From positions 1 through 64,000 of the forward strand of contig DASXVV010000012.1 of assembly GCA_036504035.1 (NCBI GenBank): a DNA stretch of 64,000 bases. Direction: 5' to 3'. Position numbers and translations under genes: made by a program. Positions within the stretch are counted from its first letter, which is position 1; every line of letters begins with the position of its first letter. Origin of the DNA: Candidatus Deferrimicrobiaceae bacterium (GTDB lineage Bacteria; Desulfobacterota; Deferrimicrobia; Deferrimicrobiales; Deferrimicrobiaceae). Of the stretch, positions 57,136 to 62,133 are shown piece after piece. The notes below the pieces were generated by a model. The model had not been told where the DNA came from. It worked only from the letters and a program-made list of their open reading frames with translations, and made no database searches.

Positions 57136-58815
57136 CTACTTCTTCCCCGGCTTCGGGACGGGCATTCCGGGCTGGATCGCCGCCGGCCGGCTGGTGGGCA
57201 AAATATCGAACTTGTAGACCCGGTTTCCCATGACGCTGGTGATGTAGAAGCGAAGGTCGTTTTCGTCGAACGCGAAGTTGGACAGCAGGTTGCTCGACAG
57301 CTTCATCGTGTCGCGCTCGATCACGTCGACGTAGGTGGCGACGTATTTATACGCGGGGTCGAACTCCTTGATGGCCTGCATCAGGTGATCGAGGACCAGG
57401 ATGTTGCCGTTCTTGCGGAATGCCAGCCCGCCGATTCCCTGGAATTTCGCGTTGGTCGTGCCAAGCCCGCCGAACGTAGCCACGACGGCCGCCTTTTTCG
57501 GGTCGATCACCTTGATCTGGGCGGTGACCCCGAGGACGACGTAGAGCTTGCCGTCGACGGGATTGTACTGGATGCCCTTGGCGGTCGGCAGGTCGGATTC
57601 GGTCATCTCCCGCTCGTCGTAAGTGCCCGGCGGTCGCCCGACCGTTGCGATCTCGTCTCCCTTTCCGTTGATCTTGATTGCCTGAGCGCGGACGCCGTCG
57701 AGAATCCAGTAGTAGCCGGTTCCGTCGACCGCGACCTGGTTGGGGTTGTTGCGGAACCTGGGCGCCTTCTGCGCGGTGCCCTCGGGGGGCTCGACGTCGG
57801 CTGGCTCGGCCGGCCCCTTCTTCTTGTTGGGCGGCGCGATTTTCCGGTCGACATACGGGGGGTAGCGCAGCTCGCCGACGAGCTTTCCCGTGCGATCGAG
57901 GCGACGAATGACCTGTTCGGAGAAGAACGGGACGAGTAAGGTGCCGTCACCATCCTCGACGACGCTTCCCGGCAGCCCCCAGCCCTTGTCGAAGGTGATC
58001 CGGCTTTTATAGATTCCATCGGCATCGAAGAACTGGATACCGCGACGTTCGAGGACATAAAGCTCGCGATCGTGCGTGAGGCCGGCAATGGAGGGCTGGT
58101 TGAGCTCGTAGATCTCCTCCCCCCGGAAAAATCCCCGGGCGGCGAGTTTCCGGGGGATCGTTTTCTCGGCGGTGCCGGCCGATTCGGCCTGCGAACGGCG
58201 CAAGGAGGCCCGGATCGGGGCGGACCAAGGGGATTCCTTGCCGTCTTTCCCGACGGAAGCGATCCGGTAGAAGTAGGTTGTTCCCTTTTCGACCTTCCGG
58301 TCCGTGAAGGTTTCGATCTGGACCGACTCCTGGAGCATATATGCCCCGTTTTCGGACTCGGCCCGGTAGATGTTGGAGAACATCGTCCCCTGGGGAGAGG
58401 ACCAGCGAACTGTGATGGCGGTCGTAGAGCCGATGGCGCCGGTGAAGGAAGGCGGCTGCATCTGCTCGATCCCCTTGACCGTGCCCGGGGCGGAAGTCTC
58501 GGATTCGCCGTCTTTCATCATGCCGGCCACCTTGTAGGTGACGGTGTCGGGAAGGGCGACAGAGGTGTCGCTGTACGTGTTCGCAGGGCCGCTGTAGATC
58601 TCCTTGAACGGCGCATCGCCCATTTTCCGGAAGAGTCGGTACCCGGTTGCGCCCGGGATCGGCGTCCACATCAGGATGATCGAATTTCCGGCCCGGATGG
58701 GAAAGCCGGAAAGCCACTTGGGGCCGGGGGGGGCGGCTTCGAGGCGAACGGGAGCGGAGAGCGCCAGGAGGGCGAGCACCGCCAGGAAAAGGGAGGAATA
58801 TCGTCGGGTTGACAT
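57136..58815 (-). CDS. Exported FnIII and NHL/beta-propeller-like protein
   Basis: A 559-residue secreted protein with a signal peptide (about 1-28). Two fibronectin type III-like domains (about 35-205) have typical strands (SIILMWTPIPGATGYRLFRK, AITVRWSSPQGTMFSNIYRA, TYFYRIASVGKDGKESPWS). From about 220 a six-bladed NHL-like propeller follows (for example NPNQVAVDGTGYYWILDG and GIGGLAFRKNGNILVLDHL). Such proteins act as adhesins or scaffolds. It lies seven bases downstream of the nine-site cytochrome gene, so the two are probably made together at the cell surface. ATG 58815 is chosen over TTG 58818. Confidence 0.8.
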   Translation of the reverse strand: MSTRRYSSLFLAVLALLALSAPVRLEAAPPGPKWLSGFPIRAGNSIILMWTPIPGATGYRLFRKMGDAPFKEIYSGPANTYSDTSVALPDTVTYKVAGMMKDGESETSAPGTVKGIEQMQPPSFTGAIGSTTAITVRWSSPQGTMFSNIYRAESENGAYMLQESVQIETFTDRKVEKGTTYFYRIASVGKDGKESPWSAPIRASLRRSQAESAGTAEKTIPRKLAARGFFRGEEIYELNQPSIAGLTHDRELYVLERRGIQFFDADGIYKSRITFDKGWGLPGSVVEDGDGTLLVPFFSEQVIRRLDRTGKLVGELRYPPYVDRKIAPPNKKKGPAEPADVEPPEGTAQKAPRFRNNPNQVAVDGTGYYWILDGVRAQAIKINGKGDEIATVGRPPGTYDEREMTESDLPTAKGIQYNPVDGKLYVVLGVTAQIKVIDPKKAAVVATFGGLGTTNAKFQGIGGLAFRKNGNILVLDHLMQAIKEFDPAYKYVATYVDVIERDTMKLSSNLLSNFAFDENDLRFYITSVMGNRVYKFDILPTSRPAAIQPGMPVPKPGKK

Positions 58816-58822
58816 CAATTGA

Positions 58823-60373
58823 TCACCAGTTGTGGGCGGTGCCGTTGAAGATGTGGCAGTCGGGGCAGTCCATGCTGATCGCGATATCGCCGAGCCCCGT
58901 GCTGCTGTTCGCCCACGATGGCAGGCTCACCCGGAGATTCGTCGTGACCGGCTCATTGGATTTGGGGTGGGACTGAATGCTCCCTGGGGAGGACACCTTG
59001 ACCGGGCCGGTCGTCACGTGATGGGCGTTGGGCAGGTTGTGCCCGCTCGTGACGGTCCCGCCCTTGGACCAGTCGGCCTCGTTGGGGAGACCGACGCCGT
59101 TGTGGCACTTCTTGCAGATCGATTTGCCGTGCTGGCCGATGTCGACCAGTCCCTTGGAGCCCGAGACGCCGAAATGGACCCGGTGGCAGGTCGTACAGAG
59201 CAGCTCCCCGTCGGTTCCGAACTGGTTTCCGGCCTGGCGGCTGAGATAGCTGATCGGGGCGACCTTGAACTTGAAGCCGCCAACCGTCGTGGTGTATTGG
59301 CCGGCCTTGTCCAGCGTTGTCCTGGTGCCTGCGGGGTGCCCCCAGGCGGTCAAGCCGACGTTCCAGTCCTCGCGGTCGGCCTGGAGGGAGGTGGCATTCC
59401 CGTGGCAGCCTACGCAGATCGGGTTCCACCCGCTGTCGGCGTCGATCGTCTTGACGACGTTGAGGTTCCGCTCCCCGTTGATGTTGGGGCGGTGCGCCGA
59501 ATGGCAGGTATAGCAGCCCATCTGCTGGCGGCCGCCGCGCGGCGTCCAGGCGCTCATGGGTTCGGTGGGGCCTGACGTCAGGTGCCCCCCCATATTCCAC
59601 GAGACGGACTTGTCGTTCAACGATTTCGCGGCCGGGGCCGGTACGTCGAACACGTTGACCGTGCCGCTGCCGTCCTCGCGCCCGTAGCGCTGGATGAGGA
59701 TGCGCCGCGGAAAGCGCCCGTTCTCGGAGCGGGACGCGGCGATCGCGTTGTCGACGAGGAAGTCGACCGGATGGTTGCCGTCGGGGGGAGAGCTGAGGTT
59801 CCCGGTCGCCCGCTCGACGTGGCACCGGTCGCAGAAGCCGTCGAAATTAGGGTATTCGGCGGCGAGCGGCGCGAGCAGGAACGGCGGGTAGCTGTTGTCG
59901 TGGACCGCGTGGCACGAGGTGCACTCGAGCGGGGTTCCCGTGGACACCCCGGGCCAGGAGATGTTGGGGGGAGGCCAGGACGTGGGGCGCCCGCTGCCGC
60001 TCTTGAGATTGTCGGGCCAGCGGCCGTGCGAGCGCGTGAAGAACACAGCGGTATAGTCGGGCGTCTGGGAGGTGCCGTAATCCGTCATGCTGACGCTCGG
60101 GCCCGGTTCCGGGACCAGGGTGTCGGTCTCGGGGAGAATCCCCTTCCCGGAGTGGCACAGGAAGACGCACTGCCCGCCGTAAGTCCCGAGCTCGTTTTCC
60201 ATCACGCCGTAATAGTTGGTGTCCTTGCGTGCGTGGCAGACGAGGCATGCGTCCTTGTCGGGGAGGTACTGCCGGATGTCGTGATGGGAATTGTCGATGC
60301 CGGCGCCGACGGGAGCCGCTGTCAGCAACAGGACAAGGGCGGCCAGGATGCGAGATGCCGATATGTTGTTCAA
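58823..60373 (-). CDS. Multihaem c-type cytochrome with nine haem-like sites
   Basis: A 516-residue exported cytochrome with a signal peptide (about 1-24, ending GAG). It has eight CxxCH haem sites: CLVCH, CTSCH, CDRCH, CYTCH, CVGCH, CTTCH, CKKCH and CPDCH. One extra CVFLCH (Cx3CH) lies after the first. Many spare His residues may serve as second axial ligands. It belongs to the doubled-CxxCH/NapC-like group rather than any cytochrome I know by name. TTG 60373 is preceded by GGAGG. It transfers electrons across the periplasm or to the surface. Confidence 0.9.
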   Translation of the reverse strand: MNNISASRILAALVLLLTAAPVGAGIDNSHHDIRQYLPDKDACLVCHARKDTNYYGVMENELGTYGGQCVFLCHSGKGILPETDTLVPEPGPSVSMTDYGTSQTPDYTAVFFTRSHGRWPDNLKSGSGRPTSWPPPNISWPGVSTGTPLECTSCHAVHDNSYPPFLLAPLAAEYPNFDGFCDRCHVERATGNLSSPPDGNHPVDFLVDNAIAASRSENGRFPRRILIQRYGREDGSGTVNVFDVPAPAAKSLNDKSVSWNMGGHLTSGPTEPMSAWTPRGGRQQMGCYTCHSAHRPNINGERNLNVVKTIDADSGWNPICVGCHGNATSLQADREDWNVGLTAWGHPAGTRTTLDKAGQYTTTVGGFKFKVAPISYLSRQAGNQFGTDGELLCTTCHRVHFGVSGSKGLVDIGQHGKSICKKCHNGVGLPNEADWSKGGTVTSGHNLPNAHHVTTGPVKVSSPGSIQSHPKSNEPVTTNLRVSLPSWANSSTGLGDIAISMDCPDCHIFNGTAHNW

Positions 60374-60494
60374 TGATCCTCCGGATTTTCCCGCTCCCGC
60401 AAGACTACCCCGCAAGACTACACCATGCGGGACGCGCGGAAAACCGGGAAATGCAGGGTTTGAATTGATCCCCAAAAAATGTATAACGGAATCG

Positions 60495-61022
60495 ATGATC
60501 CCGGAATCCGTGCCCAAGAGGCGTTGGCCGTATCTGTTGCTGTTGACGCTCGGGGCAGCATCGGCCCTCCTTGCGGCCGTCGACAACTTTCCCCGCACGA
60601 ATCCGCACGCCTCGTTCCAGCGGAAGGAGGCGCCCCTGTGCCCCCGCTGCCACTTCTACTCCGGCGGCACCCGCTTCGAGGCCGACCGCTTCGCCGCCGA
60701 CGCCGACACGCTCTGCTACGACTGCCACGCCAAGGAGCACCTCGGTCGGACCCATCCCGTGGGATCCCGTCCCGCCGCGAAGTACGGGCACAAGATGAAC
60801 GTGCCCGACGAGTTTCCGCTGAACGACGACGGGAAGATGATGTGCCTCACCTGCCACTTCGCCCACAAGAAAGCTTATCTTTCCCAGGAAAAATCCTGGC
60901 CGACCCAGCAGCCCGAGAGCAACATCCCCGGCCGCTATTTCAAAACCTTCTACCTGCGGCGCACCGACCCGAGAACCCTCGGGATCGCGGCGCTGTGCGA
61001 CGGGTGCCACAAAAAGATATGA
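60495..61022 (+). CDS. Tetrahaem c-type cytochrome, membrane-anchored
   Basis: A 175-residue protein with an N-terminal helix (about 11-30) and four CxxCH sites: CPRCH, CYDCH, CLTCH and CDGCH. The spacing resembles small periplasmic electron carriers. It diverges from the nine-site cytochrome, with 121 bases between starts, and overlaps the first HAMP-like gene (ATGA). It may deliver electrons or redox state to the membrane pair downstream. Confidence 0.9.
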   Translation: MIPESVPKRRWPYLLLLTLGAASALLAAVDNFPRTNPHASFQRKEAPLCPRCHFYSGGTRFEADRFAADADTLCYDCHAKEHLGRTHPVGSRPAAKYGHKMNVPDEFPLNDDGKMMCLTCHFAHKKAYLSQEKSWPTQQPESNIPGRYFKTFYLRRTDPRTLGIAALCDGCHKKI

Positions 61023-61573
61023 ACACGATGCCGCAGTACAACATGCGAAGGATCGTCCTTATCAACCCGCGGTTCCAGCTCCGGGTCGCGATGCTTTTCT
61101 GCGCGATCATCCTGCTGGGGGGTGCGCTGCTGGCGTTCCAGATCTTCCGGGACGTCCAGGGCGTGCTCGTCGAGGCGACGGCCCGCGGCCATTTCGACAA
61201 CGACCTGACGCCGTTCATGCTCGTCTCGGACGTCATCGTCCGCGACCTTCTCGTGATGGCGGGGGGGCTGCTGGTCGCGACCTTCGTCCTGTTCGCCTTC
61301 CTGCTCCGGCGCATTCACGCGGGCATCCTGCGGCTGGTCGAGGTGCTGCTCAAGTCCGCGCAGGGCGACCTGTCGACGCCCACCGATGCGCCCGGCCCCG
61401 CCGAGATCGGCGCGTTCGGGGAGCGGCTCGACGGCATCCGCGGGACGACGCTCGTGCTCATCAAGGAGATCCGCGGCGACGCCGCCGCGCTCGAATCGGC
61501 GTCCCTGTCCGGGGACGATTACAAGGCGCGCTGGAACGCGCTGAAAGAGAAGCTCGGGAGGCTGGCCCCATGA
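61019..61573 (+). CDS. HAMP-like membrane protein, first of a pair
   Basis: A 184-residue protein with two membrane helices (about 18-40 and 70-92) enclosing a short periplasmic loop, followed by a HAMP-like cytoplasmic segment (LRRIHAGILRLVEVLLKSAQGDL) and a helical tail. No kinase, cyclase or methyl-accepting domain follows. The start is ATG 61019 (ATGA with the cytochrome stop); ATG 61028 is possible. The next gene starts in its stop codon. Confidence 0.78.
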   Translation: MNTMPQYNMRRIVLINPRFQLRVAMLFCAIILLGGALLAFQIFRDVQGVLVEATARGHFDNDLTPFMLVSDVIVRDLLVMAGGLLVATFVLFAFLLRRIHAGILRLVEVLLKSAQGDLSTPTDAPGPAEIGAFGERLDGIRGTTLVLIKEIRGDAAALESASLSGDDYKARWNALKEKLGRLAP

Positions 61574-62133
61574 GCGCCGACATAAGCACCGACAACGTCA
61601 GGATCACCGAAGGCCGGTACGGCACCCGCTTCCTGGTCAAGCTGGCGATCACCGTCGCCGGCGGTCTCACGCTGGTCTTCGGGTCGCTGTACCTGCTATT
61701 TTCCCGCCCGCTCCGGGGCGGCTACGGTTCCGCCTACCAGGCGCTCAACAGCCTGACCGAGCCGTGGCTGCTGCTTCCGATCGTCGGCCTTCCGGTGCTG
61801 GTCTACGCGCTCGTCGTCTGCATCGTCACGGTCGTCCTGTGCGTTTATGCCATCCACAAGGTGGCGGGCCCGCTCTACCGAATGGACCGCGTGGTCGACA
61901 ACTACGTATCCGGCGAACCGATCCGGGCCGTCTTCTTCCGGCAGGGCGACCAGGCGGCGGTGCTTGCCGACGTATTCAACGCCTTCGTCGCCCGCCTTCG
62001 CGAAGACCGCCAGGGATGCCAGGATCTGATGGCGCGCGCCGAGAGCGACTTCGCCCGCGACCCGGCCGCGGCCAGGGCCGAGATGGCCAAGGCCGCCGCC
62101 GAGATCGGGAAGCGCACGGCGAAGTACAAGTAG
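61570..62133 (+). CDS. HAMP-like membrane protein, second of a pair
   Basis: A 187-residue protein with the same layout: helices at about 22-44 and 70-95, then a HAMP-like AIHKVAGPLYRMDRVVDNYVSG and a helical end. It lacks an output domain. It probably forms a heterodimer with the first protein, possibly relaying redox state from the tetrahaem cytochrome (inference). The pair may be a split, output-free form of a chemoreceptor or sensor kinase. Confidence 0.78.
   Translation: MSADISTDNVRITEGRYGTRFLVKLAITVAGGLTLVFGSLYLLFSRPLRGGYGSAYQALNSLTEPWLLLPIVGLPVLVYALVVCIVTVVLCVYAIHKVAGPLYRMDRVVDNYVSGEPIRAVFFRQGDQAAVLADVFNAFVARLREDRQGCQDLMARAESDFARDPAAARAEMAKAAAEIGKRTAKYK

Follow-up and report, generated by a model that had tools for sequence, protein, structure and literature searches.

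A conserved operon of a tetrahaem cytochrome and two HAMP-like membrane proteins, with a possible role in extracellular electron transfer

Introduction

The locus described here raises the question of what two HAMP-like membrane proteins without an output domain do in an operon headed by a multihaem cytochrome. A few complexes (ImcH, CbcL, CbcBA and CymA) represent what is known of extracellular electron transfer on the inner-membrane side. Two questions become directly testable at such a locus: whether a HAMP module can function when it has no sensor output, and whether such modules hold a cytochrome or read it.

Gene organization of the locus

The window, meaning the whole stretch of 64,000 nucleotides that was analysed, lies on contig C12 of a 3.17 Mb genome (G000) of a Candidatus Deferrimicrobiaceae bacterium. 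Genes in the window were called from open reading frames and codon usage. The features concerned are as follows.

57136-58815, minus strand: exported FnIII/beta-propeller (NHL-like) protein, 559 aa, partner of C9; domain matches below threshold; its paralogues adjoin C9 paralogues
58823-60373, minus strand: C9, exported nine-haem c-type cytochrome, 516 aa, with eight CXXCH and one CX3CH
60152-60169, minus strand: CX3CH motif (CVFLCH) of C9, the non-canonical ninth haem site; C69, C73 and H74 invariant in 9/9 homologues
60374-60494: divergent C9/C4 intergenic region, 121 bases
60495-61022, plus strand: C4, tetrahaem cytochrome, 175 aa, with four CXXCH, a hydrophobic N-terminus (signal or anchor helix) and invariant His 38, 87 and 124
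61019-61573, plus strand: H1, HAMP-like protein with two transmembrane helices (TM) and no output domain, 184 aa
61190-61192, plus strand: codon of H1 His58, in the periplasmic TM1-TM2 loop, a candidate haem ligand or contact; His in 24/24 H1
61570-62133, plus strand: H2, two-TM HAMP-like protein with no output domain, 187 aa
61855-61872, plus strand: HKVAGP motif of H2, at the inner end of TM2 and the start of the HAMP-like helix; H96, A99, G100 and P101 invariant

The gene positions given by the original prediction are borne out by these calls, and its nine-site cytochrome by the calls together with the invariant CX3CH. The ATGA couplings that it described are likewise present, at both the C4/H1 and the H1/H2 junctions, and they recur with the trio in 20 genomes. 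A PanE-like gene comes after H2.

It is apparent that the C9/FnIII-propeller pair on the minus strand and C4-H1-H2 on the plus strand are two separable units. A single complex of all five products was considered and rejected: C9 and the FnIII/propeller protein form a cassette of their own, which travels alone elsewhere (with a PPIase in genus g9), and most family genomes have C4-H1-H2 without them. Among the genomes searched, the pair was found beside the trio only in g1, the genus of the window.

A scan of the C9/C4 intergenic region for promoters gave no sigma-70 consensus promoter. Within this region the block AATGTATAA...TCGATG is kept in two congeners. The divergent promoter region also holds, at 60395-60430, two near-perfect copies of CGCAAGACTAC, which are not conserved in two congeners.

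C9 and the FnIII/propeller protein

C9 matches the Pfam family Cytochrome_C7 (36 bits against a cutoff of 24.8). All nine of its haem sites are conserved among nine homologues and, as judged from these sequences, the CX3CH motif is a real ninth haem site. A C-terminal motif, DCxDCHxFNxTAHNW, is near-invariant in the same nine proteins. Homologues of C9 were confined to genera g1 and g9 among 40 genomes searched. In genus g9 the gene order is C9, PPIase (PF13145) and propeller protein, and peptide deformylase and ACT-domain genes flank both that cassette and the C9 pair of the window. An identity of C9 as an OmcE-type nanowire subunit was considered and rejected, the match to OmcE covering 28 residues only (E 0.015).

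The matches of the FnIII/propeller protein to fn3 (22.5 bits against 25, E 1.3e-4), Mala_s_1-like (E 3e-5) and ScyF_NHL (E 5e-9) all fall below the curated cutoffs. Its assignment as a propeller, which is drawn from the Mala_s_1-like and ScyF-NHL matches, is therefore a weak one; a paralogue exceeds the Mala_s_1-like cutoff (39.6 against 27.5).

The genome of the window contains a second, paralogous C9-propeller pair at C11:80.8-84.1 kb. The surrounding cluster (L211, G000:C11:72000-91900) holds the C9 paralogue, the propeller protein, several TlpA-like proteins, cytochromes with 5, 7 and 8 haems, an NtrX-type regulator and a kinase-like protein of 500 aa that itself bears one CXXCH. Elsewhere in this genome, about 32 matches to the CXXCH pattern lie within 6 kb on one strand (G000:C2:814-6675, minus), which suggests giant multihaem cytochromes. 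The genome as a whole has 517 matches to the CXXCH pattern, compared with 89 to the reversed pattern.

The C4-H1-H2 operon in the family

The complete trio was found in 20 of the 24 family genomes and is absent from all four genomes of genus g8. Overlaps of 4 bases occur at 21 of 23 C4-H1 junctions and at all 23 H1-H2 junctions in the family. With 20 genomes sharing both the trio and these overlaps, chance is not the explanation: C4-H1-H2 is a real, strongly conserved operon.

The context of the operon changes from genome to genome. It adjoins deformylase in G012, an APC-type permease (PF13520) in several family genomes, and a divergent NtrX-type regulator/kinase pair in 3 of the 20 genomes (G003, G005 and G008). 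Tandem double copies are present in G004, G010 and G015; in these genomes a 658-aa APC-type permease is situated between or beside the copies (L056, L058, L059 and others). The conservation of the trio across such contexts suggests coordinated synthesis of subunits. No cytochrome b gene lies beside the trio in the window, and none was recognised beside it in the family loci. Nor, in most family genomes, is there a chaperone gene beside C4-H1-H2.

HAMP-like character of H1 and H2

H1 scores 21.5 bits against the HAMP family PF00672 (E 3e-4), below the gathering score of 25, and a Pfam search of H2 gave no PF00672 match. Relatives in the same profile family exceed the cutoff (40.7 bits in L115 and 32.8 bits in L121), and the H family therefore carries a HAMP-like domain. 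The core of this domain is accompanied by connector and AS2-like motifs, RxGDQ...FN in H2 and GDLSTP in H1. Neither protein has an output domain. The description of the two as HAMP-like proteins without output thus holds, with the HAMP match sub-threshold in H1 and passed by relatives.

AlphaFold models of H1 and H2 were computed with three sequences. Confidence was poor, with a mean pLDDT of 58 for H1 and 49 for H2; in these low-confidence models, helices are placed where a HAMP domain would be expected to have them (residues 64-114 and 127-159 of H1). Beyond HAMP, no curated family in Pfam or NCBIfam names H1 or H2, and no solved structure matches the H2 profile.

The H family across the phylum

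A search with the H2 profile gave matches in 203 of 395 genomes of the phylum, or about half. Gene neighbourhoods were surveyed for 60 regions at strong H2 matches outside the family, with 20 regions of those genomes taken as controls. At 40 of these 60 loci, which are the best-scoring H2 relatives rather than a random sample, a cytochrome with three or more haem sites lay within 100 bp and on the same strand, vs 1 of the 20 controls (Fisher p 9e-7). A stable tie between the HAMP-like pair and a cytochrome is supported by 20 of 24 family genomes, with conserved overlaps, and by the close cytochrome neighbours at two-thirds of the surveyed loci elsewhere.

Kinase, MCP or GGDEF motifs were present within 4 kb at 3 of the 60 H loci; in the controls they were counted over the whole 10.5 kb region and were found in 4 of 20. 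The original prediction had proposed a co-occurrence survey, holding that HAMP-like proteins found mostly with separate kinases would speak against it; such company is rare here, and a separate kinase was rejected as the usual partner of H1/H2.

The loci fall into the following arrangements.

A: C4-H1-H2
A2: the same three genes as A, in changed order
B: H2, 7-haem cytochrome, H1
C: H and an 11-haem cytochrome, present also in the genome of the window at C13:80.9 kb
D/E: 5-haem cytochrome, then H
F: SurA-like lipoprotein, H and a small protein (about 180 aa), adjoining genes for exopolysaccharide; most of the remaining loci

Exopolysaccharide operons are thus a second, cytochrome-free setting of the H family. 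Since one branch of the family resides in operons without cytochromes, the H proteins are not electron carriers as such. The triad of SurA-like lipoprotein, two-TM HAMP-like protein and unnamed protein of about 180 aa was observed in L121, L116, L119, L126, L128, L151 and others.

The type B regions contain strong OmcE-like cytochromes at nine loci (E < 1e-50), those of L043 and L106 matching PDB 7tfs (E 2.6e-27 and 6.4e-21, respectively), as well as NHL propellers and porin-like proteins. These neighbours support a place for the module in extracellular electron transfer clusters.

C4 and the partner cytochromes

C4 has four haem sites and three invariant distal histidines (38, 87 and 124). 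It was rejected as a cytochrome of the NapC/NrfH/CymA type, there being no match to NapC/NirT (PF03264) and a marginal one to NrfH in the PDB (E 0.004). The C4 profile matched the N-terminal part of both kinds of longer partner: over the full length of the C4 domain in the 11-haem proteins (E 1e-15 to 1e-33) and over its core in the 7-haem proteins (E 1e-12 to 1e-22). The 5-haem partners of arrangements D/E have only a short core in common with C4 (CxxCH, SHPV and TCxTCHxxH), and their scores (E 1e-6 to 1e-14) are near those of unrelated cytochromes (C9, 2.7e-7; a control, 1.9e-7).

Conserved histidines of the H proteins

The TM1-TM2 loop of H1 is periplasmic, as indicated by charge distribution. 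The column of H1 His58 was counted in an alignment of 133 H proteins. It is histidine in 24/24 H1 proteins of arrangement A, 4/4 of A2, 13/16 H1-like proteins of B, 12/12 proteins of C, 7/7 of D and 7/7 of E. The paired H2 proteins have histidine there in 0/25 (A), 0/17 (B) and 2/5 (A2) cases, and the exopolysaccharide-linked proteins in 2/16. Within pairs it is thus H1 that has the residue and H2 as a rule that has not, and every single H protein linked to a cytochrome has it. Three H1 proteins of the B type (7-haem) have Arg or Lys at this position. When histidines anywhere in the loop were counted without an alignment, the groups were separated less sharply (14/25 for H2 of arrangement A and 7/16 for arrangement F).

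In a phylogenetic tree the exopolysaccharide-linked set forms one clade, and its lack of the histidine is therefore a single evolutionary contrast; a reading of the histidine-cytochrome correlation as a series of independent events was set aside on this ground. H1 proteins form one clade across arrangements A, A2 and B (SH-aLRT 96), which is consistent with an old H1/H2 pair.

A different histidine, that of HK(V/I)AGP at the inner end of TM2, is found in nearly all members of the H family. As the exopolysaccharide-linked branch has it too (16/16), it is a feature of the family and not of the association with cytochromes.

Proposed role of H1 and H2

We propose that H1 and H2 may be HAMP-type partners of C4 in the inner membrane, serving it as an anchor or relay in extracellular electron transfer, a reading that we regard as having about an even chance of being correct. 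H1 and H2, each with two helices and a cytoplasmic HAMP-like bundle, would pair as a heterodimer via their bundles and TM helices, and the pair would keep periplasmic C4 against the outer side of the inner membrane. C4 could then relay electrons, in one direction or the other, linking the chain of the inner membrane to cytochromes in the periplasm or outside the cell. The invariant periplasmic histidine of H1 would contact C4, and may serve as the further ligand of the one C4 haem for which no invariant distal histidine is seen. If H1 gave such a ligand, this would account for the presence of the histidine in H1 but usually not in its paired H2, and for the count of three invariant distal histidines against four haems in C4. 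The anchor is the preferred reading because no partner in trans is conserved and the cytochrome is always kept in these arrangements.

The same observations bear on a role in redox sensing, by which C4 would report the electron load of the periplasm and the H1/H2 bundle would shift and act in trans, its target being a soluble kinase, cyclase or transporter whose gene lies elsewhere. The HAMP-like core with its connector and AS2-like motifs would suit such a role, as would the NtrX-type regulator/kinase pair divergent from the trio in three genomes, the APC-type permease adjoining it in several others, and the service of the H family in a cytochrome-free type of operon. However, 57 of the 60 surveyed loci have no kinase, MCP or GGDEF gene nearby, and no trans partner gene is conserved across contexts. 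Sensing appears somewhat unlikely, and is retained because a HAMP-like core would be unusual in proteins that did nothing but anchor. A more specific form, in which H1 His58 ligates a C4 haem across the subunit border, the H1/H2 bundle moves with the redox or ligation state of this haem, and the output is in trans, would amount to a HAMP-type receptor wired to electron flow. This we consider improbable; if true, it would give the cell a direct reading of how loaded with electrons its periplasmic cytochromes are.

The H proteins might instead belong to a general envelope-assembly family, serving exopolysaccharide as well, with H1/H2 helping partner cytochromes to be exported, loaded with haem or put in place. 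The SurA/PPIase-type proteins that adjoin H in exopolysaccharide and type D loci point in this direction, together with the TlpA-like thioredoxins that follow the 11-haem version in the genome of the window and the C9-PPIase-FnIII/propeller cassette of genus g9. The trio has no chaperone neighbour in most family genomes, however, and the invariant periplasmic histidine suggests a lasting contact with the cytochrome, although transient haem chaperones also use histidine; such an assembly role is regarded as unlikely. Finally, the three genes might share no more than their regulation, their products never coming into contact. Gene order and 4-base overlaps, however, have been kept in 20 genomes in differing contexts, and the association recurs in several arrangements with different cytochromes, so that mere co-transcription seems very unlikely.

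Comparison with known systems

Our search of the literature found no paper describing HAMP-like/cytochrome operons of this kind, the nearest being the annotation of Cbc5. In Geobacter sulfurreducens the Cbc5 cluster is cbcEDCBA (PMC11434368), and CbcD of this menaquinol oxidoreductase is annotated as HAMP-domain-containing (PMC7894505). The likeness of H1/H2 to CbcD (GSU0591) is one of annotation; CbcD has two haem sites of its own and a cytochrome b alongside it, whereas H1 and H2 have no haem site and the C4-H1-H2 trio is without cytochrome b.

Other likenesses are to single parts of the module. Af1503 of Archaeoglobus fulgidus is a membrane protein that ends in HAMP without a recognisable effector, as H1 and H2 do; we know of no link between it and a cytochrome, whereas H1 and H2 are paralogues of one another and share an operon with a cytochrome. 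NapC, NrfH and CymA resemble C4 in being small four-haem periplasmic cytochromes with an N-terminal helix, and in NrfHA a partner subunit supplies a ligand to a NrfH haem. C4 differs in having no NapC/NirT match and in being accompanied by two two-TM HAMP-like proteins.

This phylum is known to have OetABI conduits (PMC10553843). Relatives of the module adjoin OmcE-like cytochromes, NHL propellers and porin-like proteins, in likeness to the OmcE/OmcS nanowire and Oet/Ext porin-cytochrome clusters, whereas in the window no OmcE-like gene or porin lies beside the trio. What the present locus adds is a multihaem cytochrome module with HAMP-type membrane partners. These partners come from an unnamed protein family in which the members linked to cytochromes share a single conserved periplasmic histidine and a single kind of haem partner.
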